DNA of 64,000 bases, taken from NCBI GenBank assembly GCA_022561385.1, contig JADFRG010000005.1, positions 1 through 64,000 of the forward strand, read 5' to 3'. The notes beneath the pieces were generated by a model. The model was not told where the DNA came from, ran no database searches, and saw only the letters and a list, made by a program, of their open reading frames with translations. How positions within the stretch are numbered: the stretch's first letter is position 1; each line of letters opens with the position of its first letter. Shown piece by piece: positions 3,434 through 19,923 of the stretch. Origin of the DNA: Chloroflexota bacterium. GTDB taxonomy: Bacteria > Chloroflexota > Anaerolineae > Anaerolineales > E44-bin32. Position numbers and translations under genes: made by a program.

Positions 3434-5683
3434 TCAGGGACCGGAACGCTGAGTCCAGACCCAGAGCTGCTCGCCATCCGTGACCAACTCGATCCAGCCC
3501 CGATCCTCGGTGGCGAGCAGGTTGGCTCGCGCGCTGCTAAAAGGAAGTGGATTCGACCCGGCAATGACGGCGACCGTGACATCTAAATCTTGCAACAAGC
3601 TAACTGAGGAGCCGCCCGAGAAAATGATGCCAGTCAGTGCAGAGCGGATGGGAGCCAGGGGAGATTGGGTCCGCGGTAGAAGCGCGATCCGCGCCCTGCC
3701 TGAAGTCAATAAGAAAGTAAGATCGCCCTTCTCATCGCCGATCAGCTCCAGGCGAGCTCCATCTCCCAGTTCGAGAGCCATGCCCCTCTGGGCTCTGATC
3801 AATTCGGTTCCCCCTGCCTGCAGAGCCTGGATCAGGGCAGCCGGCACGCGGTCAAGCTGATCAGCTGTAAGCATCAATGCGCCAATCTCAATTCCGGCCG
3901 GAACACCAGCCAGGCCGGAGATCTGGCGATCGGGCAGCACCAACCAATCAAGGCGCCGATGGAATAGTGGCAATTTTCTCCCGAGCGAATTCGACAGAGC
4001 GGTCGCAGAGTCGCCGCCGCCGATCAGGATGAAGCGACCCTCCGCTGTTTCGATGAGCGTGCCTCCCGATTCGAAGGTTGTCAGGTGAAGGCGGCCGTCC
4101 GGGCGGTCTGCCACGGCCTTCCAGGTGAGGAAGGCGACCACCAACAGTGCGACCGCTGTTGCCAGGAGGGATGGAGCGGGTAGTGCGGGCCTCCGTTCGC
4201 GCGGCAGCATGGCCCAGATGGTTACACCAAACAGCAGGGCGTACATCGCAATCAGCGCCGGGAAGCTGACCGGACCCAGATCGATTGCGGCCGTTGGCAC
4301 TTTGGCAAGTAGATCCACCGCCCGAATGGTGAACGCTGGAAACGGCCAGGCCAACCACGCCATGAGCTGTCCGAGGGGAAGCCAAATCATTCCTGCCAGC
4401 ATGGCCATTCCACCCAAAATCATGAGCGGTGGTTGCGCGGGAAGAACAATCGGATTGGCGATAAAGGATACAAGCGAGAGTCGCTGGAAGTGGTAGGCCA
4501 TCAGCGGAAGGGTTGTGATCTGGGCCGCGAAGGTGAATAGGATGAACTCACCAACCGGTCCGGAGAGCCGCACGGCTTGTTTGGTTTGAATCCAGCGAGA
4601 AGCAAACCGGACGAACCATTCTTTGATCGGCTCGGCATAGAGAACGAGACCGAGCGTAGCCGCGAATGACAGTTGAAATCCAACATCCCAGAGGACGTAG
4701 GGGCTGGCTATCGTCATCACGATCGCCGTAGCAGATAGCGAGGCCAGTGCCAACGTCGCGCGGCCGAGGAAGCGCGCGGTAAGAGCCAGACCCCCCATAA
4801 GCGCCGCCCTCACCACCGAGGCGTCGGCCCCAACTAGAATCGTGTACAACGCGATGGCGACCGCCGCGACGATCGAGCCTCTTCGCATCCCCAGGGTTCG
4901 TCCCGCGAGCGAGATGACAAGCGCGGCCAAAATAGTGATGTTGAATCCCGAAATGGCGATGATGTGAGTGGTGCTTGTGTCGTTGAAGGCCTGGCGCACC
5001 TCGGAGCTGATGCCGCTCTCGATGCCGAGCAGAATTCCGGCCAGGAGCGAAGCTTCGGGATCTGGAAAGATCAAATATAAGGTTTCCAGTGCGCGTTGCC
5101 GTATGCTGAAGAGAATGTGGACGACTGGATTTCCCTCTCGAGTTGCAACCGTGGTCACCGAGGCATTCGACATCAGGCTGAAGATGTCCTGGCGAGCGAG
5201 GTAGTCCCGATAGGAGAAGTCCTGGAATTCAGGCGGAGTCTCGAGAATTCCCAGGGCCTCCACGCGGTCGCCATAGGCGAATGAACCAAACCGGTCGGCG
5301 CGCACGAGCACGTTACCGGTGATTTCTTGCGTCCCACCCGAATCCGAGTAACGGAGGCTGTCACTGGCAACGCGCAGGCCGATGTATTCGTCTCTGACGT
5401 CCGGAAAATCAGTGACCAGACCGATCAGGGTCACAATTTGGAAGGTATCGTTGTGAGCTGACACATGCGAGGGGTCGAATTCGGGGACCGCGACCGCCAG
5501 ACGCCAGGCACCCAGGAAGAGCACGGCGACACCCACTCCGAGCCAGCGCAAACGGTTCTCGCCGACAACAGCCAGGAGTAGACCCAGGCCGCTCGCAATC
5601 AACAGAGAGCCGGCTGGAAGATTCAGAAATCGCCCCAAGGCGATTCCAGCAAGCCAGATCAAGCCGACCCAGAACAGCCTCAC
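3434..5683 (-). CDS. comEC: ComEC/Rec2-family DNA internalization protein with degenerate C-terminal MBL-like region
   Basis: Competence-domain core 'LLAGILLGIESGISSEVRQAFNDTSTTHIIAISGFNITILAALV', many TM segments, C-terminal region in the position of the MBL domain. Confidence 0.85.
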   Translation of the reverse strand: MRLFWVGLIWLAGIALGRFLNLPAGSLLIASGLGLLLAVVGENRLRWLGVGVAVLFLGAWRLAVAVPEFDPSHVSAHNDTFQIVTLIGLVTDFPDVRDEYIGLRVASDSLRYSDSGGTQEITGNVLVRADRFGSFAYGDRVEALGILETPPEFQDFSYRDYLARQDIFSLMSNASVTTVATREGNPVVHILFSIRQRALETLYLIFPDPEASLLAGILLGIESGISSEVRQAFNDTSTTHIIAISGFNITILAALVISLAGRTLGMRRGSIVAAVAIALYTILVGADASVVRAALMGGLALTARFLGRATLALASLSATAIVMTIASPYVLWDVGFQLSFAATLGLVLYAEPIKEWFVRFASRWIQTKQAVRLSGPVGEFILFTFAAQITTLPLMAYHFQRLSLVSFIANPIVLPAQPPLMILGGMAMLAGMIWLPLGQLMAWLAWPFPAFTIRAVDLLAKVPTAAIDLGPVSFPALIAMYALLFGVTIWAMLPRERRPALPAPSLLATAVALLVVAFLTWKAVADRPDGRLHLTTFESGGTLIETAEGRFILIGGGDSATALSNSLGRKLPLFHRRLDWLVLPDRQISGLAGVPAGIEIGALMLTADQLDRVPAALIQALQAGGTELIRAQRGMALELGDGARLELIGDEKGDLTFLLTSGRARIALLPRTQSPLAPIRSALTGIIFSGGSSVSLLQDLDVTVAVIAGSNPLPFSSARANLLATEDRGWIELVTDGEQLWVWTQRSGP

Positions 5684-6058: not shown

Positions 6059-6853
6059 ATGCAACAGTATCTGGATCTACTGCGTTACGTGTTGGAAAAC
6101 GGTGTAGAAAAGAATGATCGCACCGGCACCGGGACTCTTTCCACTTTCGGATACCAGATGCGCTTCGACCTTGCGGATGGATATCCACTCCTAACCACCA
6201 AGAAGCTGCATCTGAAGTCCATCATCTACGAGCTGCTCTGGATGCTGAACGGAGACACGAACGTTCGGTACCTGAACGAAAACGGCGTGACGATCTGGGA
6301 CGAGTGGGCCGACGCAGAGGGCGAACTCGGACCGATCTATGGGGCGCAGTGGCGAACCTGGAGCGGCCCGGATGGAGACACGACCGATCAGATCTCGCGG
6401 GTGGTGGAGGAAATCCAGCGCAATCCCGATTCGCGCCGGCTGGTGGTCAGCGCCTGGAACCCGGCACAAGTAGACCAGATGGCGCTGCCTCCTTGTCACG
6501 CGATGTTTCAATTCTATGTACAAAACGGCAAGTTATCCTGCCAGCTATACCAACGCTCGGGCGATATCTTTCTGGGTGTTCCTTTTAACATCGCCTCCTA
6601 TGCGATGCTTACACAGATGATGGCGCAGGCTACTCAATTGGACCCGGGCGAATTCATTCACACCCTCGGAGACGCCCACCTTTATAAGAATCATCTGGAG
6701 CAGGCCAGCATGCAGCTCCAACGTGAGCCGCGGCCGCTACCCCGTCTTGAGCTCGACCCCGATGTCCGCTCGCTGTTCGATTATGACTACACGGATTTCT
6801 CTCTGACCGGCTACGAACCCCACCCCCACATTCAAGCCGCCATTTCCGTGTGA
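6059..6853 (+). CDS. thyA: Thymidylate synthase (ThyA)
   Basis: Full-length; catalytic '[12 protein letters not shown]', '[17 protein letters not shown]', '[12 protein letters not shown]'. Confidence 0.98.
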
Positions 6854-7356
6854 TTGTTTCGATTATCGCGGCCATGGCAGAGGGCAACCGGGGCATCGGC
6901 CTGCGCGGAGGATTGCCCTGGCGCCTTCCGGCGGATATGGCTCGCTTCCGCGAGCTCACCATGGGACACGCGGTAATTATCGGGCGCGTTACCTGGGAGC
7001 CGATCGCTGACCGAGGGCTGCCGGGGCGGCGCGTGATCGTTCTAAGTCGGGATCCTCACGCGCCCGAATTTGGCGACGCGGTCGCGAGCTCCCTGGAAGA
7101 GGCCCAGCAAATCGCAGCCCGAGACAAACAGGAAACGGAGACCTTTATCGCCGGAGGGGCGCAGGTCTACCAGGAGGCGCTCGATCGGGGGCTTGTGGAT
7201 CGGATGTACCTTACGATTGTGCACGGCCAGGTAGAGGCGGACACGTACTTTCCAGAGTACGAGGAGATAGATTGGACAACCGTTTCCAACGAAACACACC
7301 TGCCTGACGATCGTAATTCCTACCGCATGACATTCTGCCTTTTAGAGCGGTCTTGA
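6850..7356 (+). CDS. folA: Dihydrofolate reductase
   Basis: GTG start overlapping the thyA stop; '[46 protein letters not shown]'. Confidence 0.95.
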
Positions 7357-9390: not shown

Positions 9391-9419
9391 TTGACAACAA
9401 GGTCGGTATCCTGTATCAT
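9391..9419 (+). promoter_or_regulatory. Sigma70-type promoter of the BMC operon
   Basis: TTGACA (9391-9396), 17-nt spacer, TATCAT (9414-9419). Confidence 0.8.
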
Positions 9420-9425
9420 GGCATA

Positions 9426-9443
9426 TGTCATCCTAGGATGACA
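9426..9443. promoter_or_regulatory. Putative operator for the GntR-family regulator
   Basis: Perfect 18-bp palindrome TGTCATCCTAGGATGACA beginning 7 nt after the -10, about 30 nt before the gntR start. Confidence 0.75.
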
Positions 9444-9473
9444 ATAAAGTAGTAACATTAGGAAAGGTAACCA

Positions 9474-10250
9474 TTGGCTCTTCAATCCACCATCGACCGC
9501 GGCTCGCACGTTCCGTATTACCTTCAGTTGAAGGAGACGCTCACGGAGGGTATCGAGCAGGGAAACTGGGGCCCCGGCGAACTCATCCCCAGCGAGTCGG
9601 AGCTGGGAAAGTCATTCGGAGTCAGCAGGACGGTGGTTCGGCAGGCGTTAAACGAGATGACTTACGAGGGGCTCGTAGTGCGGCAAAGGGGCAAGGGCAC
9701 CTTCGTATCGCAGCCCAAGATCAGCAGTCGAAGCTTGGTGCAGTCGCTGGAAGGGTTTTATGGCGATATGGCGGACCGCGGGGTGCAGGTGATAACACAG
9801 GTGCTGGAGCAGACTCTGCAGCCGGCCGATTCAGACGTAGCCTTGAATCTCAAGTTGGAGGCGATGGCCCCGGTGGTGAAGCTGGTTCGTTTGCGCTTCG
9901 TGGAGCAGGAACCGATCGTGTTGGTCGAATCTCACCTCCCATATGAGATGTGCCGGGACGTGATCAAGGCGGACCTCGCGGAAGGATCCCTGTACGCATT
10001 CCTTGAAGAGCAATGTGGCCTAACCATCGCACGCGGCTGGAGGCGAATCGAGGCCATCGCGGCAGATGAGGAGGCGGCCGCGCACCTTGCCATAGATGTT
10101 GGCTCGCCGCTTATCCGCCTCAAGAGTGTCAGTTATACATCGGATGGAACTCCGCTCGAATACTTCGACGCCCTCTTCCGGGGCGATCGATCGAGATTTG
10201 AGGTCGAAATTGTAGACATCGCCGGGCATGGGGAGCGAGAACGTGCGTGA
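9474..10250 (+). CDS. GntR-family transcriptional regulator (wHTH + UTRA domain)
   Basis: 'GELIPSESELGKSFGVSRTVVRQALNEMTYEGLVVRQRGKGTFVSQPK' and a C-terminal UTRA-like domain; TTG start. Confidence 0.93.
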   Translation: MALQSTIDRGSHVPYYLQLKETLTEGIEQGNWGPGELIPSESELGKSFGVSRTVVRQALNEMTYEGLVVRQRGKGTFVSQPKISSRSLVQSLEGFYGDMADRGVQVITQVLEQTLQPADSDVALNLKLEAMAPVVKLVRLRFVEQEPIVLVESHLPYEMCRDVIKADLAEGSLYAFLEEQCGLTIARGWRRIEAIAADEEAAAHLAIDVGSPLIRLKSVSYTSDGTPLEYFDALFRGDRSRFEVEIVDIAGHGERERA

Positions 10251-11001
10251 GGATCAAATACGCCGCATGGTTCGCCGCGTGGTCTACCGTACGCTCGGCA
10301 GATCCCCGCGTTCGACAACCACAGGGGGCAGATCGCTGGTGACCGAATCGGATGTGGCCGCGGCCGAGCGAGATGCAACCCTCGACGTTCCACCTGGTGC
10401 GCTGGTTACTCCGCTGGCGCGGCAGCTCGCAATGGAACGCAACGTAGAGCTACGAACGCAGAAACCGCTTGACCCGCGCAATCCGGGAGCCGGCTCAAGG
10501 GTACGGAATTCGGGCACTCCCGCCCGCAAACGAAAAGTTGCCATAGGCGCGGACCACGGCGGATATGAGTTAAAGGAAAAATTGAAGCGGTGCCTTTCGG
10601 AGTGGGGATATACGGCCATAGATTGCGGCACCGACAGCTCTGAATCCGTGGACTATCCCGACTATGCCTTTGCAGTGGCTCAAATGGTCGCCAATGGGAA
10701 CGTCGATTGGGGAGTGATGATCGATGGGGCCGGCATCGGCTCTTGTATGGCGGCAAATAAGGTCCCGGGAGTTAGGGCCAGCATGTGTTACGACCAGGCC
10801 ACCGCCGCCAACAGTCGCGAGCACAACCACGCCAACCTGCTGACCCTGGGCGCCGGCTTGATCGGAAACGGGCTGGCGAAATCCATCCTGAAGACCTGGC
10901 TGGATACGCCATTTGGTGGCGGTCGCCATGCCAAACGAGTCAAGAAGATTGACGATATCGAGCATCGGTACCTGCGCAGCGCAGTGCCGGTCCGCGGATG
11001 A
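10228..11001 (+). CDS. RpiB/LacA-family sugar-phosphate isomerase homolog with N-terminal BMC targeting-like extension
   Basis: '[26 protein letters not shown]', '[42 protein letters not shown]'; extra ~100-aa N-terminus beginning with an amphipathic segment. Confidence 0.88.
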
Positions 11002-11020
11002 GCGGGGGACGAAGCTAACG

Positions 11021-11980
11021 ATGGTAGCGATGGACGAAACGACCGTGGAGCGAATGATCGAAGGGATCACGCGCCAGGTGTTGATCCTGGTTCAGGAGGG
11101 CTCCAAGCGACCCAACGGAAGCTCTGACGACATCTCTTCCGGAAGTTTTGCGGAAGGCATGCGGTCCGTGGTCGATGCAGGCGCCGACCGCGTGGCGAGC
11201 ACGCTCGGCATCGCGCCGATCGATGAACGAATGGCGCGCTTGATCGATCACACGCTGCTCAAGCCGGACGCCACACAGGACGAGATCGCGCAACTCGCAT
11301 ACGAGGCGCGCAAATTCAAGTTTGCGTCGGTGTGTGTCAACCCCAGCTACGTGAAGCTTTCGGCGCAGCTGCTCAAGGGCAGCGAGGTAGATGTTTGTAC
11401 CGTGGTGGGATTCCCATTGGGGGCGACTCCCACCGACGTGAAGGTTTTCGAAGCACAGCAGGCGATTCGCGAAGGCGCCACGGAGATCGATATGGTCATC
11501 AACGTAGGCGCGGTGAAGTCGAAGGATTATGAACTGGTCGAAACGGACATCGCCTCGGTTGCCCGCGCGAGCCATGCGGGCAACGCAATCTTGAAGGTGA
11601 TCATCGAGGCCGCCTTGCTTACCGACGAAGAAAAGGTCGTGGCGAGCCAACTGTCCAAGATCGCCGGGGCAGATTTCGTGAAGACTTCTACCGGTTTTGG
11701 CCCGGGAGGTGCCACGCCGGAGGACGTCGCCCTCATGCGCCGCGTGGTTGGGCCGAATATCGGCGTCAAGGCCGCCGGCGGAATCAAAACCGCCGAGGAC
11801 GCGCGCCGAATGATCGAGGCCGGAGCCTCGCGGATCGGCGCCAGCGCAAGTGTGAAAATCGTCGGTGGGACCCCCGGGCTTCGCCAAGGACAACCTGAGA
11901 GCCGCGGGCAGCCTGACGGCCGTACGATCCTGGCACAGGACAGCCCGGCCGATGGAAAGGAACAACCTTATGGCAGTTGA
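11021..11980 (+). CDS. deoC: Deoxyribose-phosphate aldolase with N-terminal encapsulation-peptide-like extension
   Basis: '[19 protein letters not shown]', 'VCVNPSYV', 'CTVVGFPLG', '[14 protein letters not shown]', '[15 protein letters not shown]', '[28 protein letters not shown]'. Confidence 0.95.
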
Positions 11981-12596
11981 CCTGCGAACCTACATTTACC
12001 TCGACAGTCTACAACTTCAGCATGCGGGATTTCTGGGGACGGTGGCACGCGGCTTCCTACCCCTTCCCGGCGACGCGTCGCTCTGGGTTGAGATTTCGCC
12101 CGGGATCGAAATCAATCGCATCACCGATATTGCCCTGAAATCCACAAAAGTTCGACCAGGGATGCAGATCGTTGAGCGACTTTATGGCATGCTGGAGGTA
12201 CACCACAGCGACCAAGCCGAAGTGCGCGCGGCCGGGGAGGCGATTCTCGAGGCGTTAGAGGTACAGGAATTGGATCGAATTAAGCCGCGTGTGGTATCCA
12301 GCCAGATCATTCGCCACGTCGATGCGCACCAGGTGCAGCTCATCAATCGGCTCAGGCACGGCCACATGCTGCTGGCCGGTCAGACCTTATACGTACTCGA
12401 GGTCGAACCGGCGGCCTATGCGGCTCTTGCCGCGAACGAAGCGGAGAAGGCGGCCAACATCAATATCCTGGAAGTGCGGGCATACGGCAGTTTTGGAAGG
12501 GTGTATCTGGGAGGCGAAGAGCAAGACATCATGGCCGGCTACGGCGCGGCGGTGGCGGCCATCGAAGGTGTTACCGGCAGAGAGGCCGGCAAGTAG
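11970..12596 (+). CDS. BMC shell protein, tandem-domain (BMC-T)
   Basis: '[45 protein letters not shown]...[37 protein letters not shown]'; two BMC folds; start overlaps the deoC stop. Confidence 0.88.
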
Positions 12597-12639
12597 AGTC
12601 GCGCGCAACTATCCGAACGGAAACATGAAGGAGGCTCCA

Positions 12640-12969
12640 ATGGCAGAACAATCGATAACCGGTGAGGCACTAGGAATGATCGAAACCAAGAGCTACCCCG
12701 CGATGGTGGAAGCCGCGGATGCAATGGTCAAGGCCGCCAATGTTGAACTGGTCACGTTCCAATCGACCGGAGGTGGCCAGGTCACGGCCGTGGTGCGCGG
12801 AGACGTGGCCGCGGTCAAAGCGGCCATCGAGGCCGGCGCCCGCGGTGCAGAGAAGGTCGGCGAAGTGATCGCCATCCACGTGATCCCGCGCCCGCACGCC
12901 AACGTCGATAACACGCTCCCACTGGGTCGCCAGCCGGGCCAGGGCGGCAAGCAGGCCAAAGCGGCCTAA
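12640..12969 (+). CDS. BMC shell protein, hexamer-forming (BMC-H)
   Basis: '[30 protein letters not shown]...[41 protein letters not shown]'. Confidence 0.97.
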
Positions 12970-12982
12970 CAGAGCTCATAAC

Positions 12983-13131
12983 TGGGACGGGATCCTCTCG
13001 TCAGGTTGCAGGATCGGCGTAGGCGGGGCCCGAACGTAGGCCGCGAGCGCCGAAAAGTCCGACGGCAGACATCGCTGGCCGAGGCTCTGGCATAGTTACT
13101 CGCCAGGTCCAATGCCGCGGATCCTGTCCCA
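12983..13131 (+). other. Candidate structured RNA element within the BMC operon (long-range 13-bp stem)
   Basis: TGGGACGGGATCC (12983-12995) pairs with GGATCCTGTCCCA (13119-13131), 12 Watson-Crick pairs plus one G-U as RNA; lies in the largest intergenic gap of the operon. Confidence 0.45.
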
Positions 13132-13148
13132 ATGAAACGGAGTTCATC

Positions 13149-13448
13149 ATGTACCTAGGCAAAGTAGTTGGGACTCTGGTTGCGACGCACAAGGAGCCCT
13201 CGCTGGACGGCCTCAAGTTTCTTGTGTTGAAACAGCTGGATGCTGAGGGTGAGGAGACCGGCGCCTACCGTGTCGCAGCCGATGCAGTTGGCGCGGGGCT
13301 GGGTGAGGTCGTGTTATACGCCACCGGCAGCGCCGCGCGGCAGACCGTGCTTACGCATGAGCGGCCATGTGATGGAGTGGTCATGGCCATTGTCGACCAG
13401 GTGGAAATCAACGGTGAACTCACCTACAACAAGGCCGAGGTCGGCTGA
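13149..13448 (+). CDS. BMC shell protein, pentameric vertex protein (BMC-P, EutN/CcmL family)
   Basis: '[31 protein letters not shown]...[21 protein letters not shown]...[13 protein letters not shown]'. Confidence 0.95.
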
Positions 13449-14914
13449 TGTTGGAAAGCGCACAGATCGATGCCATCGTAGAGCAGGTCATGTCGGAACT
13501 GGGTCAGGGCGAACGGGTGCGGCACGGTCCCACCCCCGCCCCGGTCACAACCCTCCTTCCTCCGGAGCCTGCCCGTTCGCTGCAGCACGGAGACAATCTG
13601 TTCCCCAATGTCGACCGTGCGGTAGCGGCAGCGCAGGGAGCCTTCGAGGCCCTGCAGGCCCTGCCGCTGGAAGTCCGCGAAAGTATGATTTCGCAGATTC
13701 GGCGCCTCGCGCGAGAAAATGCCCAGGTCCTGGCTTATGAGGCCTGGAAAGAAACCGGCATGGGGCGCTACGAGGACAAGATCCAGAAGAATCTGCTAAA
13801 CGCCAACAAGACGCCCGGGACCGAAATCCTGACCCCTACTTCCTGGTCGGGCGATCGCGGCCTCACGCTTACGGAGTGGGCGCCTTTCGGAGTGATCGGT
13901 GCCATAACACCCAGCACCAATCCCACTTCGACCCTGATCTGCAACACGATTGCTATGGTAGCGGCCGGGAACGCCGTCGTCTTTAACGCACACCCGGGAT
14001 CTAAGGGCGCCTCCAACCACACGGCTCAGATCATGAACGAGGCGATTGTGGAGGGTGGGGGACCCCCGAACCTGGTGTGTGCGATAGCAGAACCCACGAT
14101 CGAGACCGCGACCGATTTGATGCACCACAAAGGGGTCCGCATCCTGACTGTCACGGGCGGAATCGGAGTGGTGCGGGCGGCCATGTCCAGTGGAAAGCGC
14201 GCGATCGCGGCCGGCCCGGGCAATCCACCCGTACTCGTTGACGAGACGGCTGACCTCGAGCAGGCCGGACGCGATGTGGTATTTGGTGCCTCATTCGACA
14301 ACAACATCATCTGCACCGACGAGAAAACCCTCATCGCGGTCGATTCGATCGCAGACGAACTCAAGCAGGTGATGGCTCGTTACGGTGCCTATGAACTCGA
14401 CGGCGGCGAGCTCGATCGGCTGCTCAAGGTGATTTATGAGGAGGTTCCGCCACCCGGCAAACACGGCGTAATGAATAAGGCATTTATCGGGCAGAACGCC
14501 AACGTGATCCTGCGCGAGATAGGGATCGAAGTAGGAGACGAGGTTCGCCTGATCCTGGCGGACGTCCCGAACGATCACCCCTTGGTATGGTCCGAGCAAA
14601 TGATGCCGGTGTTCCCTCTAACGCGTGTGGCCAACGCTCAGGATGGTATACGTCTGGCGGTGGATTCCGAACACGGTTTCCGACATACGGCGGTGATCCA
14701 TTCGAAAAACATCGACCACATGACAGAAATGGCTCGCGCTATCAACACCAGCATTTTCGTCAAGAATGGACCCTCCTTGGCTGGACTGGGCTACGGAGGC
14801 GAAGGTTTTTGTTCCTTCACGATCGCCAGCCCCACCGGTGAGGGCCTCACAAATCCGCGCAGCTTCAGCCGTTTGCGACGGTGCGCTCTGGTGGATGCCT
14901 TCCGAATCGTATGA
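13448..14914 (+). CDS. BMC-associated CoA-acylating aldehyde dehydrogenase (EutE/PduP-like)
   Basis: 'GVIGAITPSTNPTSTLICNTIAMVAAGNAVVFNAHP', catalytic Cys in 'DNNIICTDEKT', N-terminal 'ESAQIDAIVEQVMSELGQG' encapsulation-peptide-like helix. Confidence 0.93.
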   Translation: MLESAQIDAIVEQVMSELGQGERVRHGPTPAPVTTLLPPEPARSLQHGDNLFPNVDRAVAAAQGAFEALQALPLEVRESMISQIRRLARENAQVLAYEAWKETGMGRYEDKIQKNLLNANKTPGTEILTPTSWSGDRGLTLTEWAPFGVIGAITPSTNPTSTLICNTIAMVAAGNAVVFNAHPGSKGASNHTAQIMNEAIVEGGGPPNLVCAIAEPTIETATDLMHHKGVRILTVTGGIGVVRAAMSSGKRAIAAGPGNPPVLVDETADLEQAGRDVVFGASFDNNIICTDEKTLIAVDSIADELKQVMARYGAYELDGGELDRLLKVIYEEVPPPGKHGVMNKAFIGQNANVILREIGIEVGDEVRLILADVPNDHPLVWSEQMMPVFPLTRVANAQDGIRLAVDSEHGFRHTAVIHSKNIDHMTEMARAINTSIFVKNGPSLAGLGYGGEGFCSFTIASPTGEGLTNPRSFSRLRRCALVDAFRIV

Positions 14915-15498
14915 TGTATGATCCGGCGCTGACCTTAATCGAATTCAGCAGCATCGCGGCCGGCATTCAGGCCGCAGATGCGATGGTCAAGCGCGCGCCC
15001 ATCGATGTAATCCAGGCCGGGACGGTCCATCCCGGAAAATATCTCGTGTTGGTGGGTGGTTTGACCGCCGATGTAGAGGAGTCCTTAGCTGCCGGCCGCG
15101 AAGTGGGCCGAGACGCGATCCTCGATTTCGTATATCTTCCCCAGGTGCATCCCAGCGTCGTGACGGCGCTGCGAGGCGGACGCTCTCCAGAACCAGCCGA
15201 GGCCCTGGGGGTTCTCGAGACGAGTTCGGTAGCGGCGGCTATCCGTGCCGCAGACGCGGGGGTCAAAGGTGCCCAGGTGGAGCTGGTCGAGGTGCGCCTT
15301 GCGGATGGCCTGGGCGGCAAGGGAATCGTGTTGTACTCGGGGGTGGTGGCGGACGTCGAAATCGCGGTGGCTCTGGGGGTGGAGTCCCTGCAGGGCCCGG
15401 ACGCGCTCATCCGACAAGTGGTGATTCCGCAGCTACACGAAGAGATGTGGGACAACCTGTCGCAAGCCACGCGATTTAGCGCACGGGTCACGGCATGA
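14911..15498 (+). CDS. BMC shell protein, tandem-domain (BMC-T), second paralog
   Basis: Two BMC repeats: 'LIEFSSIAAGIQAADAMVKRAPIDVIQAGTV' and 'GVLETSSVAAAIRAADAGVKGAQVELVEVRLADGLGGKGIVLYSGVVADVEIAV'. Confidence 0.93.
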   Translation: MMYDPALTLIEFSSIAAGIQAADAMVKRAPIDVIQAGTVHPGKYLVLVGGLTADVEESLAAGREVGRDAILDFVYLPQVHPSVVTALRGGRSPEPAEALGVLETSSVAAAIRAADAGVKGAQVELVEVRLADGLGGKGIVLYSGVVADVEIAVALGVESLQGPDALIRQVVIPQLHEEMWDNLSQATRFSARVTA

Positions 15499-15839
15499 AA
15501 TACGCGCGGGTGATAGGAAGCGTGGTCGCCACCCAGAAATACCAGGATCTGGAGGGCATCAAACTGCTCGTGGTCCAGCCGCTGGACGAGGATCGAGAGC
15601 CCCGCGGTGTGGCCCAGGTCGCAGCGGATGCCACCGCACAGGCCGCGCCTGGAGAACTTGTGTTTGTGGTAGCCAGCCGTGAAGCGGCGCAGGCCCTTCC
15701 AGAAACCTTCGTGCCTGTGGATCTGGCTATCACGGGTATCGTCGACGCGATCCATGCTCCCGAAGGTGGACGTCGAACACAAGCAACGGCAATATGGCAC
15801 GGGCCAGCCGACCTGACGGCTCCGGAGACCGGGCAATAA
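15495..15839 (+). CDS. BMC shell protein BMC-P, second paralog
   Basis: 'MKYARVIGSVVATQKYQDLEGIKLLVVQPLDEDREPRG...VDLAITGIVDAIHA'. Confidence 0.93.
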   Translation: MKYARVIGSVVATQKYQDLEGIKLLVVQPLDEDREPRGVAQVAADATAQAAPGELVFVVASREAAQALPETFVPVDLAITGIVDAIHAPEGGRRTQATAIWHGPADLTAPETGQ

Positions 15840-15842
15840 CAC

Positions 15843-16115
15843 ATGTATATCGGTAAGGTGATCGGCACCGTGGTCGCCACGGTCAAGATTTCCCACCTCA
15901 GGGGCCGCAAGTTGCTCATGGTCGACCAGCTCGACCTGCAGGGGGAGGAAACGGGCGACTACGACATCGCGGTGGATGTGGCTCAGGCCGGGATCGGCGA
16001 TACGGTCCTGGTTTTAGACGAGGGCAACGGGGCGCGGCAGGTTTTGGAGCTGGATCCGGGGGCCATTCGCACTGTAATCGTTGGGGTGGTCGACGAGGTC
16101 AGGGTGAGCTACTAA
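15843..16115 (+). CDS. BMC shell protein BMC-P, third paralog
   Basis: 'MYIGKVIGTVVATVKISHLRGRKLLMVDQLDLQGEETGDYDIAVDVAQAGIGDTVLVLDEGNGAR...IVGVVDEV'. Confidence 0.95.
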   Translation: MYIGKVIGTVVATVKISHLRGRKLLMVDQLDLQGEETGDYDIAVDVAQAGIGDTVLVLDEGNGARQVLELDPGAIRTVIVGVVDEVRVSY

Positions 16116-16159
16116 ATTACTTACCACGCGTGCGCGGGCGAATAACCCAATTGAAATGT

Positions 16160-16180
16160 GGAGCCCAGGGGCTCCTTTTT
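16160..16180 (+). terminator. Intrinsic terminator of the BMC operon
   Basis: GGAGCC-CAGG-GGCTCC followed by TTTTT. Confidence 0.8.
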
Positions 16181-16236: not shown

Positions 16237-17007
16237 CTAATCTGCGGCAGCACGGCGGGCCAGCTCTACGAACTGAGGCTTCAGGCTGGCTCCACCCACC
16301 AGAGCGCCATCCACCTCCGGCATGGCCATAAAAGCGGAAATGTTTTCGGGGGTAACACTGCCGCCATACTGCACACGCACTTGCTGCGCGACATCTTCAC
16401 CATAGATCTCGGCCAAGGCTCCTCGAACCGATAATCCAATCACGCGATTTGCGTCTGCCGGCGAGGCGGATTCGCCGGTGCCGATGGCCCAAATGGGTTC
16501 GTAGGCGATTATGCAGGAGGCGGCCAGGCTGGCCTCCACATCCTGAAAGGCCGCCCTGACCTGACCCGAAACGAATGCGTCCGTCTGGCCGGCACGATTC
16601 TGTTCCAGGTTTTCTCCCAGGCAGAGGATCGGCGTGAGCCCATGTGTGAGGGCAGCCTTTAATTTCCGATTGATGGCTTCGTCGGTCTCCTGGTTGCTTC
16701 CCGTCGCCCGACGCTCCGAATGGCCCAATATGACATACTGGCAAACGCCCGCCAGCATAACGGGAGAGATCTCACCCGTATGGGCTCCTTGTTCCTCCCA
16801 GTGTGCGTTTTGTGCACCCAATGCAATGCGAGTCGGGGCGAGCAGCTCGGCGAATTGGTGAAGGACGGTCGTGGGTGGGCAGATAACCAGATCAACGCCC
16901 TTGATCTCGTTCAGTCCGCTCCGAATTTTTCGGAAAAAGGCCAGGGCTTCATCCGATCGACCCAGGTTCATCTTCCAGTTAGCAACCAGTATAGGTCTGC
17001 GCGCCAT
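16237..17007 (-). CDS. tpiA: Triosephosphate isomerase
   Basis: '[18 protein letters not shown]', '[24 protein letters not shown]', '[18 protein letters not shown]', '[11 protein letters not shown]'. Confidence 0.98.
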
Positions 17008-17062: not shown

Positions 17063-17614
17063 TCAGCTTGAGGCAGCCTGGGCCTCGCCGCTCGAGCGAG
17101 GCACCGCCTCTCGTGGAAGCGGTGCGATTGCGTCCACCATCTCACGGTTGAAAAGCATCGCCGGGGAACTAGCGCGAATATCTGGAAACAAGATCGCGAT
17201 CAGCTCCGCATTGTAGAGCGGAATGAAGATCCGATCCCCCTCGATCATAAAAGTCCCGAAGTTGAATTTGCCAGGAGTCTCGACCTGCCCGCGCAGCTCA
17301 TATCCGCCCAGCACCAGGTGCACCCAGTGCGGCATCGTGGTGGTATACCCGCCGCGCGCCATGCCGGAGGGACCCACCTCGGCCCGGGTGCTCAGAAGCA
17401 CCGTCACAATCTCGCCTTTGACGACCCACAACGTCGGGTAACGCGCCACCATTCGTCCCGGCTGGTGCAGCCGATTGAGATGTGCTCCTTCAACTGCCAG
17501 ATAGTTTGTAGTGGGGATGTTGAGATAGCCGTACAGCCCGCTGGCACCGGGGTCGATCCGCCCCAGAATCCGGTGGCTAGTTGTATAGATCTCGACCGAT
17601 ATGGGCTTGGTCAT
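17063..17614 (-). CDS. Hypothetical protein
   Basis: ORF with in-frame ATG at 17614 ('MTKPISVEIYTTSHRILGRIDPG...'), adjacent to the stop of the upstream gene. Confidence 0.75.
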   Translation of the reverse strand: MTKPISVEIYTTSHRILGRIDPGASGLYGYLNIPTTNYLAVEGAHLNRLHQPGRMVARYPTLWVVKGEIVTVLLSTRAEVGPSGMARGGYTTTMPHWVHLVLGGYELRGQVETPGKFNFGTFMIEGDRIFIPLYNAELIAILFPDIRASSPAMLFNREMVDAIAPLPREAVPRSSGEAQAASS

Positions 17615-17615
17615 G

Positions 17616-19259
17616 CTAGCTTCCGGTGGGCAGCGCAAACGTGATCTTGGCGCTGGCCGGCGTCTGATCGTACCACAGTACACCGTCCATGCTTTCCGCG
17701 ATCATACGTAACTCACCCAGCGAAAGCCCGTACCCTAAATTGCCGGCAGAAGGATCTGCAGTCTGCGCGGTAAGCGCCTTAACGGTTTCTGGCGACAGCC
17801 CGGTGCTTGAATCCACCACTATCACTGCCGCCCACTGGCCGGCCTCTAATGCCAGCCCGGCCGGCAGCGGGACCTCGTCGCTCTTGCCGTTTCCGGCTTC
17901 GAAGGACTGAATCTGCAGCATGACCCGGCCGGTCATCGTGCGCCGGATAGCGGCCGACACCAGCGCATCGATCACCTGGTACACGCGGTCGCTGTCCCCG
18001 GGAAACAGCGGAACGGGGGCCTCGGATTCCACGGTCAGGTTCAAGCCCCTACGTGCAGCTTGAAGCTGATGGTCGGCAGCAGCCCGCTGAATTAGACGTG
18101 CGAGGTCAACAAGTTGGTCGACTGCCTCCCCCTCAATGACGGAGATCGGCATCGCCCGCAATCCCTTCAGTTGATCCCGGAGTTTAAGAAGCTCAGGTTT
18201 GCCCTGCCCCAGCGCATTCTGGCCATCAATATAGGACTGTAGCGTAAGGATGGCTTCGTCCAGACCATCCACCAGACTGGCGGGCGCGAGGCTGATGGGT
18301 CCCGTACCACCCGTGTTGGCGCTTGCCTGTTGGACAAGTGCGGCGCGGTCCAGCGCCACCCCGGCCCAATCAGAAAGAGTCATCAGTAAAGTCACGTGTT
18401 GCTCATTGAACGAGCGTAGGGCGAGTCGGTTGTACACGCCCAGCACACCGACCACCTCATTTCTCAAACGGATGGGCACCTTTACGACCGATTGCACCAT
18501 GAACCCCGTCTGCACCTTGACCGGTCCGCTATCCATGCTGGGTTTGCGCAGGATCGGCTGTCCGGAGCGAAACACCTGTCCCACCAGCATGTCATCCGCG
18601 CGCAGGCGTTGAAGAGTGGCCTGGCGTTCGCCGGCCTGTTTGGTCGCTCGCAACACGACCTCATTCGTCTCGGAATCTGCCAGGTAGATACTGGCTTCCT
18701 CCGCGTCGGTCACATAGGCCGCCGCCTCTACCAGACGGGCCAGGATTTCATCCAGATCATCCAGGCTAGCGACCACCCTTCCGATCTCGCTCAGCATACG
18801 AATCTCATCCGTTCTCCGCCTCAAATCCTCCTGCAGGCTCTCTACGCTGCGGCTCAGCTCCCCGGTGCCTCCCTCGCCCTTGCGGGTCTTCGCCAGGGCC
18901 CTGATTGCTTCGTGCAGCTCATCTTCTCGGTACGGCTTGAGCAGCACATCGCGAACGCCCAGTTGGAGAAAGCTGCGCAGGCGCGAGGCAGGGAAATGGG
19001 CTGCAAGGACTAAGGCGGGAGCGTCATCCCCCATCTCTCGGCGGTTGCGCAGACCGGCCATCGGATCACCGCGAATCTGCGTGACATCCACCACCAAGAC
19101 GTCCGCCTCGGGCGCATCGTCGGTCGCGGGCCAGGCCTCAAAGCCGGCCGGACCCAGGATGCGCTCCACCAATTGCGTGGCGTTGGTCTCTACATCCGCG
19201 ATGACCACCACACGCAGGCGGGCCTCCTCCCGAACAGCGGATTCTTCCTGCACAGTCAT
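17616..19259 (-). CDS. Response-regulator receiver + GAF + degenerate histidine-kinase-like ATPase protein
   Basis: REC-like N-terminus, GAF ('LDEILARLVEAAAYVTDAEEASIYLAD'), C-terminal HATPase-like 'YGLSLGELRMIAESMDGVLWYDQTPASAKITFALP'. Confidence 0.82.
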   Translation of the reverse strand: MTVQEESAVREEARLRVVVIADVETNATQLVERILGPAGFEAWPATDDAPEADVLVVDVTQIRGDPMAGLRNRREMGDDAPALVLAAHFPASRLRSFLQLGVRDVLLKPYREDELHEAIRALAKTRKGEGGTGELSRSVESLQEDLRRRTDEIRMLSEIGRVVASLDDLDEILARLVEAAAYVTDAEEASIYLADSETNEVVLRATKQAGERQATLQRLRADDMLVGQVFRSGQPILRKPSMDSGPVKVQTGFMVQSVVKVPIRLRNEVVGVLGVYNRLALRSFNEQHVTLLMTLSDWAGVALDRAALVQQASANTGGTGPISLAPASLVDGLDEAILTLQSYIDGQNALGQGKPELLKLRDQLKGLRAMPISVIEGEAVDQLVDLARLIQRAAADHQLQAARRGLNLTVESEAPVPLFPGDSDRVYQVIDALVSAAIRRTMTGRVMLQIQSFEAGNGKSDEVPLPAGLALEAGQWAAVIVVDSSTGLSPETVKALTAQTADPSAGNLGYGLSLGELRMIAESMDGVLWYDQTPASAKITFALPTGS

Positions 19260-19260
19260 A

Positions 19261-19923
19261 TCAGCCACCGTCGGCGGCCGCCACCAGATCGTAGTGTGGG
19301 ATCCAGCCCATGGATTCCGTTGGCCAGTATACGAATATGGCTTTGCCGATGATCTCTTCCATCGCCAGCGCTCCCCAATTCTGCGAGTCGGACGAGTTAT
19401 TCCGGTTGTCGCCCAACACAAATACTTCGCCCATGCCTACGTCCCATTGATCGTTATAGGCTGGAGGCACCGCCAGATACGGTTCATTCAGGAGGTTCCC
19501 GTTAATAAATACCTGTCCATCCAAAACCTGCAGCCGATCACCCGGCAGGCCGATGATACGTTTGATGAAGCGACGGGTCGGATTCAGAGGAAAATTGAAA
19601 ACAATAATGTCTCCTCGCCGCGGATCTCGCAGGGCATACTCCAGTTTATTCACGACCACGAATTGGCCGTCAATCAGACTGGGCTCCATGCTGTCCCCTT
19701 CCACTCTAATCCGTGCGGTAATCATATTAACTACGAAAAATAGAATCACGGCGAACACGACAGTCTGAAGGACGGATCCCAAGAAGCCCAAGATCCGCCG
19801 CGCGATGCTAGGCGGTTTGGGTTCGTTGATTGTAGGCTGCGTGGGTTGATTGAAGGGGTAGTCTGTCACGGACTGGATTATAAGACCCGGTATAGGGGCT
19901 GACAAGCGTACTCGGGTTGGCAC
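19261..19923 (-). CDS. lepB: Signal peptidase I
   Basis: 'VEGDSMEPSLIDGQFVVVNKLEY', 'RRGDIIVFNFP', 'FIKRIIGLPGDRLQV', 'VFVLGDNRNNSSDSQNWG'. Confidence 0.95.
   Translation of the reverse strand: MPTRVRLSAPIPGLIIQSVTDYPFNQPTQPTINEPKPPSIARRILGFLGSVLQTVVFAVILFFVVNMITARIRVEGDSMEPSLIDGQFVVVNKLEYALRDPRRGDIIVFNFPLNPTRRFIKRIIGLPGDRLQVLDGQVFINGNLLNEPYLAVPPAYNDQWDVGMGEVFVLGDNRNNSSDSQNWGALAMEEIIGKAIFVYWPTESMGWIPHYDLVAAADGG

Follow-up and report, generated by a model that had tools for sequence, protein, structure and literature searches.

The SPU microcompartment operon

The first 64,000 nucleotides of contig JADFRG010000005.1 (GCA_022561385.1), hereafter the window, come from an Anaerolineae-type Chloroflexota bacterium and carry a plus-strand operon of ten genes (positions 9474 to 16115) for a GntR regulator, three cargo enzymes and six shell proteins of a bacterial microcompartment (BMC). 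The locus is a catabolic BMC operon of the sugar-phosphate-utilising (SPU) type, and its RpiB-like cargo protein has lost the residues with which RpiB isomerises sugar phosphates. All ten reading frames are open and the genes are tightly packed, several of them overlapping by a few bases (Table 1). Families were assigned by Pfam and NCBIfam profiles, which confirmed every gene that an earlier note on this DNA had named: the regulator, the RpiB-like protein, DeoC, an acylating aldehyde dehydrogenase (ALDH), two BMC-T, one BMC-H and three BMC-P proteins. Each of the six shell genes matched a BMC family, the CcmP-like BMC-T by way of NF053796 (with PF00936 it reaches 24.1 bits, just short of the 24.5 cut-off). 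The source genome is a draft of 2.9 Mb in 94 contigs, 92% complete; a PF00936 search of the whole draft gave matches at this locus only, and the SPU operon is the sole BMC locus of the genome.

An SPU locus is defined by a BMC shell accompanied by an aldolase of family PF01791, an RpiB-type protein of PF02502 and an aldehyde dehydrogenase (PMC8217296; PMC4207490), and the class as published by Axen 2014 (PMC4207490) and Sutter 2021 (PMC8217296) comprises seven subtypes and more than 280 loci in 26 phyla. Shell, aldolase, PF02502 protein and acylating ALDH are all present in this one locus, as the SPU assignment made earlier implied; the BMC-H and BMC-P genes are clustered with DeoC, the RpiB-type protein and an ALDH that has its catalytic Cys, and the cargo proteins carry N-terminal extensions. 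With published SPU loci it shares the BMC shell, the DeoC-type PF01791 and RpiB-type PF02502 proteins, the aldehyde dehydrogenase, the encapsulation extensions and an incomplete core, but it contains neither PduL nor PduS. It is a further member of an already described class and, as a locus, ordinary.

Table 1. Coordinates of the SPU operon, its control elements and its convergent neighbour in the window
Feature	Position	Strand	Support
Sigma-70-type promoter TTGACA-N17-TATCAT	9391..9419	+	11/12 consensus bases; counterpart in 6 relatives
Operator palindrome TGTCATCCTAGGATGACA directly 3' of the -10 box; probable GntR-regulator binding site	9426..9443		
GntR/HutC-type regulator with UTRA ligand-binding domain	9474..10250	+	PF00392 4e-20, PF07702 1.6e-39
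RpiB-like cargo protein	10228..11001	+	PF02502 (LacAB_rpiB) 5.1e-53
DeoC, 2-deoxyribose-5-phosphate aldolase	11021..11980	+	TIGR00126 equivalog 286.6 bits (cut-off 117.3); PF01791 5.8e-20
BMC-T, gated double-layer kind (BMC-Tdp), CcmP closest	11970..12596	+	NF053796 368.8 bits (cut-off 340)
BMC-H hexamer shell protein	12640..12969	+	PF00936 102 bits
BMC-P pentamer shell protein 1	13149..13448	+	PF03319 (EutN_CcmL) 9.5e-29, 100 bits
CoA-acylating ALDH with N-terminal encapsulation-type helix	13448..14914	+	PRK15398 638 bits (cut-off 403)
BMC-T with two tandem BMC domains (Ts), PduT-like	14911..15498	+	PF00936, two stretches, 116.9 bits
BMC-P pentamer shell protein 2	15495..15839	+	PF03319 3.4e-25, 89 bits
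BMC-P pentamer shell protein 3	15843..16115	+	PF03319 1.2e-22, 81 bits
Terminator-like hairpin, then TTTTT	16160..16175	+	
Triosephosphate isomerase, convergent neighbour	16237..17007	-	PF00121 1.3e-82

An altered RpiB active site marks SPU loci

The RpiB-like protein is made of an N-terminal amphipathic helix (aa 3-22), a small linker domain (about 36-78) and the RpiB domain (about 103-250), and the best PDB match of its AlphaFold2 model (pLDDT 86) is 3he8, with a TMt of 0.95. In comparison with canonical RpiB (3he8, 1nn4) the fold is retained, as are Asp8, His9, His98, Arg132 and Arg136, whereas the catalytic Cys65 is changed into Asp, Thr67 into Ala and residue 71 into Ser; the active-site motif reads IDGAGIGS instead of the ICGTGLGI of C. 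thermocellum RpiB. In RpiB, opening of the furanose ring is the task of His98/99, whereas the proton transfer from C2 to C1 is carried out by the Cys and that between O2 and O1 by the Thr; the C69S and C69A mutants are inactive (PMC3755991; PMC4783025). The SPU protein thus has neither a catalytic base of the known kinds (Cys65 or Glu71) nor Thr/Ser67; it has lost its isomerisation residues but retains the ring-opening His and two phosphate-binding Arg. The earlier term "RpiB-like" is right for the PF02502 family and the fold; it does not extend to the catalytic Cys and Thr of a real RpiB.

The comparison covered 155 distinct RpiB domains, taken from the window, 80 contig loci, 133 genomes of a Zixibacteria-type phylum, 399 Bacillota genomes and a set of distant Chloroflexota loci (type C, see below). 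The 66 distinct BMC-linked sequences span Chloroflexota, Bacillota and Zixibacteria; residue 65 is D in 64 of them and N in the other 2, and residue 67 is always A, V or I. The same holds for the five sequences linked to deoC only, with no shell genes in view: residue 65 is D in each, and residue 67 is again one of these three. Among the 84 unlinked sequences, position 65 is C in 77, G in 5, F in 1 and D in 1; the five with G65 have Glu at 71 and so resemble the M. tuberculosis enzyme, and the contig of the only one with D65 (L029) breaks off just past the gene. Ser71 is found in 72/72 sequences of the D/N group and in none outside it, and D8, H9, D41, Y42, H98, N99, R132 and R136 are invariant across the group. 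In a maximum-likelihood tree all 72 form one clade (support 100/98), which indicates a single origin kept without exception and not many independent events. Each of the five SPU-type proteins from the Zixibacteria-type phylum is an RpiB-DeoC fusion (open reading frames of 460-475 aa); an RpiB/DeoC fusion was noted in Marinimicrobia by Axen 2014 (PMC4207490). Going by these residues, the SPU RpiB-like protein is not an ordinary ribose-5-phosphate (R5P) isomerase.

A second RpiB-family protein of the source genome, which belongs to a conserved Chloroflexota family, is encoded beside a serA-like gene (G000 C8:3067-3519; L106 1483-1947). It keeps the Cys and Thr (FCWTGTG) and is without His9, His98 and Arg132/136.

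Predicted pathway

In DeoC the Schiff-base Lys and its partner residues are intact; the motif check gave a full pass in 60/71 distinct relatives, the remainder being fragments or pattern misses, and this DeoC is the only one in the draft genome. The ALDH, whose closest PDB entry is 4c3s (5e-130), has its catalytic Cys in FDNNIIC, and the pattern FDNN(I/V)xC is kept in relatives. On the strength of these residues and of what is known of the families (PMC4207490, PMC8217296), the chemistry would be that put forward earlier: DeoC would cleave deoxyribose-5-phosphate into glyceraldehyde-3-phosphate (G3P) and acetaldehyde, and the ALDH would convert acetaldehyde into acetyl-CoA. Both steps are thus supported at the level of sequence. 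A pyrimidine-nucleoside phosphorylase is present in the genome and could feed DeoC.

DeoC acts on open-chain deoxyribose-5-phosphate, and 2-deoxyribose-5-phosphate, which lacks O2, cannot be isomerised to a ketose. Since the residues lost are those of isomerisation only, since the deoxy substrate has no O2 and since DeoC needs the open chain, we tentatively favour the view that the RpiB-like protein opens the ring for DeoC or presents the substrate to it; on a 2-deoxy sugar there is no O2-O1 proton transfer for the Thr to perform, which would make it dispensable. Deoxyribose-5-phosphate would enter the shell, probably through the gated CcmP-like trimer, and the RpiB-like protein would open or position the cyclic sugar phosphate for DeoC. 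The shell would retain acetaldehyde while the ALDH makes acetyl-CoA from NAD+ and CoA, and G3P would leave, to be isomerised, possibly, by the neighbouring triosephosphate isomerase. The substrate, the encapsulation and the permeability of the compartment are predictions in the same sense.

PduL was not found (no PF06130 match in the 92%-complete draft genome), and none of the ten operon genes encodes a cofactor-recycling enzyme, alcohol dehydrogenase included. Core features of a classical metabolosome (EUT/PDU) are to this extent missing, and NAD+ and CoA must therefore cross the shell, most obviously by way of the gated CcmP-like trimer. The gene set had been called near-minimal; this holds for the compactness of the operon, but not in the sense of self-sufficiency.

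Alternative roles for the RpiB-like protein

Taken together, we consider it likely that the locus encodes a catabolic compartment of the SPU type; that the RpiB-like protein is in it the ring-opening partner of DeoC is a tentative part of this explanation. Several observations weigh against this explanation. No DeoB-family phosphopentomutase was found in the 92%-complete genome, which leaves a gap between nucleosides and deoxyribose-5-phosphate that another phosphomutase or a deoxyribokinase would have to fill. Electron microscopy of an atribacterial isolate with a DeoC-containing BMC gene cluster revealed no compartments (PMC7736352). Position 109 is Gly in 57/72 sequences of the D/N group, including most Chloroflexota SPU proteins, and the binding site is thus not fully intact if R109 is, as the comparison with Arg113 of M. 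tuberculosis RpiB (MtRpiB) suggests, a further phosphate ligand. Finally, the Asp at the Cys position could itself be a base, and the loss of isomerase activity is something that we infer. With Asp as the base the protein would be a working aldose-ketose isomerase, perhaps on R5P or on another pentose or tetrose phosphate, and the compartment would then process RNA as well as DNA sugars. The near-invariance of this Asp (70/72) points to strong selection, MtRpiB shows that the base can shift to a carboxylate (Glu75, PMC3755991), and the RpiB-type protein of SPU loci has been described as the type that isomerises R5P (Sutter 2021, PMC8217296). We nevertheless regard such an isomerase as unlikely: the O1/O2 shuttle Thr is lost as well, position 71 (the MtRpiB Glu site) is an invariant Ser, replacing the Cys of RpiB by Ser or Ala abolishes activity (PMC4783025), genomes G061, G062 and G064 additionally encode a separate, normal Cys-type RpiB, and the fusion to DeoC points to the substrate of DeoC, which has no C2 hydroxyl to isomerise.

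The loss of both chemistry residues would also suit a catalytically dead scaffold or sensor that binds a sugar phosphate and organises the DeoC/ALDH core; the N-terminal helix fits binding to core or shell, and the DeoC fusion in one phylum agrees with it. A scaffold, however, has no need of Asp8, His9, His98, Asn99, Arg132 and Arg136, which are invariant in 72 sequences from at least three phyla, and we find this role rather improbable. A LacA/LacB-like heteromer, in which the second RpiB-family protein supplies the Cys, has a family precedent in LacAB galactose-6-phosphate isomerase for a subunit that does not provide the catalytic Cys, and the residues of the two proteins are complementary in the same way (Cys kept and His lost in the second protein). 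But LacA needs LacB, and no such partner is linked to the SPU operon: the second protein occurs in 13/35 BMC-bearing and 8/26 BMC-lacking relatives and is absent from most BMC genomes. For want of co-occurrence with the BMC the heteromer was rejected as very improbable. Hardly credible at all is a decaying, non-functional BMC remnant, for which we found no supporting point; ten open frames, tight spacing, high identity among relatives across genera and an operator kept with changes on both arms (see below) speak against it. The ring-opening partner of DeoC is therefore favoured ahead of the Asp-based isomerase and the dead scaffold. It may even be, although we hold this to be doubtful, that the protein is a new RpiB-derived enzyme type which supplies open-chain 2-deoxyribose-5-phosphate, and that the published label of R5P isomerase is wrong throughout the class.

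Cargo targeting and shell

All three cargo enzymes start with N-terminal amphipathic extensions; that of DeoC has about 66 residues and begins in an amphipathic helix. The hydrophobic moments of the three helices lie in the top 0.8%, 0.3% and 6.8% of the windows within each protein, but they are only moderately better than those of shuffles (0.07, 0.004 and 0.04), a statistically moderate result. The better argument for putative targeting helices is their conservation across relatives. These helices would draw the three cargo proteins into the shell.

The CcmP-like BMC-T, whose gene is present in 35/61 related genomes, matches the CcmP structure 5lsr end to end (314.7 bits) and retains the gate motif VERLYG. 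The likeness to the beta-carboxysome is confined to this gated double-layer protein, since the operon is without Rubisco, carbonic anhydrase and CcmM/N and the locus is catabolic; a carboxysome reading of the CcmP match was rejected for lack of carboxysome cargo. NF053796, the profile of beta-carboxysome CcmP, exceeds its cut-off on this non-carboxysome protein, and automatic annotation may mislabel it. Sutter 2021 (PMC8217296) reports CcmP-like BMC-Tdp proteins from SPU2 and SPU3 but none from SPU6, to which Anaerolineae are assigned, and the presence of one here argues against SPU6. The HO BMC of Haliangium ochraceum is similar in its shell proteins (HO-5816, a Tdp, scores 263 bits) and in its BMC-P triplet (PMC8217296); in contrast, DeoC and RpiB are not defining genes of the main HO locus, and the aldolase lies elsewhere in some HO genomes (PMC8217296). 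The tandem-domain BMC-T contains no cysteine, and Fe-S electron transfer through a PduT-like protein was rejected for this reason.

Promoter and operator

Bounds had been placed at a promoter and a terminator, and both features are there. The promoter is one of two matches of its quality (11/12) on both strands of the window, and it stands at the equivalent place in relatives L024, L026, L035, L036, L038 and L056. Counts of promoter-like and terminator-like matches in the region are not above those in shuffles; the call is based instead on match quality, on the adjoining palindrome and on conservation in relatives. The palindrome is the only perfect one of 18 bp in the window, and L024 carries TGTAATCCTAGGATTACA, the same palindrome altered at one position on both arms. 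Of the fifteen other loci with gntR and upstream DNA, 12 have TGTAAT-N6-ATTACA no more than 80 bp ahead of gntR, and a thirteenth (L036) has a weaker version of it; the motif is rare elsewhere in these loci. The direct reading of this pattern is that the GntR protein would control its own operon, and because the palindrome overlaps the expected transcription start, a repressor is the simplest role. Bound to the predicted operator, it would block the promoter until a sugar-phosphate-like ligand binds the UTRA domain.

Related loci and neighbouring genes

The closest named relative locus is L024, from a Chloroflexi metagenome-assembled genome (77% identity of the RpiB-like protein), and about 40 Chloroflexota loci share the order rpiB-deoC-Tdp-H-P-aldh-Ts-P-P. 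Loci of arrangement A, that of the window, have gntR first and a convergent triosephosphate isomerase downstream, the latter found also in L024, L026, L032, L035, L036 and L061; in Bacillota L071-L073 the isomerase gene is inside the BMC operon. In arrangement B there is no gntR, a signal peptidase gene lies upstream, and mostly two extra genes are inserted between aldh and Ts. Arrangement C (L185-L189) has the order rpiB-deoC-P-aldh-H-Tdp-P-P and more distant proteins; although these loci belong to the same taxonomic order, their Tdp is about 50% identical and their ALDH distant, with the motif IDGAGIGS unchanged in the RpiB-like protein.

Many Chloroflexota SPU operons encode, between aldh and the tandem BMC-T, a fusion of a receiver domain with a ParA/MinD-type ATPase (L033 13334-14449, L046 15459-16595), which by analogy could position compartments as McdA does for carboxysomes. 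Adjoining the operon of the window is a gene for a 206-aa protein (17063-17683, minus strand) with no Pfam match, of which distant relatives occur within the operon in L033 (12777-13313, 25% identity) and beside the type C locus L193. We rejected it as a BMC-specific accessory, as it is also present in the BMC-lacking genomes G003, G004, G009 and G019 and is mostly encoded on other contigs. Its gene overlaps that of a receiver-GAF-histidine-kinase-type protein (17616-19421, minus strand), conserved beside type A loci. Upstream of the operon lies a ComEC-type DNA-uptake gene (3434-5683, minus strand), likewise in the type A loci L024, L026, L035 and L038, and directly divergent from gntR in L035; such a position would suit a compartment that feeds on DNA, but simple conservation of gene order may also account for it. 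Two overlapping genes in head-to-tail arrangement, for thymidylate synthase and dihydrofolate reductase (6059-7356, plus strand), precede the operon by 2 kb.

Significance for the SPU class

In the open-access literature we found no biochemistry of SPU compartments and, for SPU loci, no mention of the RpiB active-site swap. This diagnostic swap, the operator and the three Chloroflexota SPU arrangements, one of which has an inserted gene pair that includes the receiver-ParA gene, seem to be new. The pathway has had a loose end, namely why an R5P isomerase should accompany an aldolase that acts on a non-isomerisable sugar phosphate. With a Cys-to-Asp and Thr-to-Ala swap that holds in every case in at least three phyla, in a protein sometimes fused to DeoC, the question becomes testable with purified protein alone, and the ten-gene operon with its defined operator is a compact system for such a test. 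If true, the ring-opening role would overturn the published R5P-isomerase assignment for the whole SPU class.

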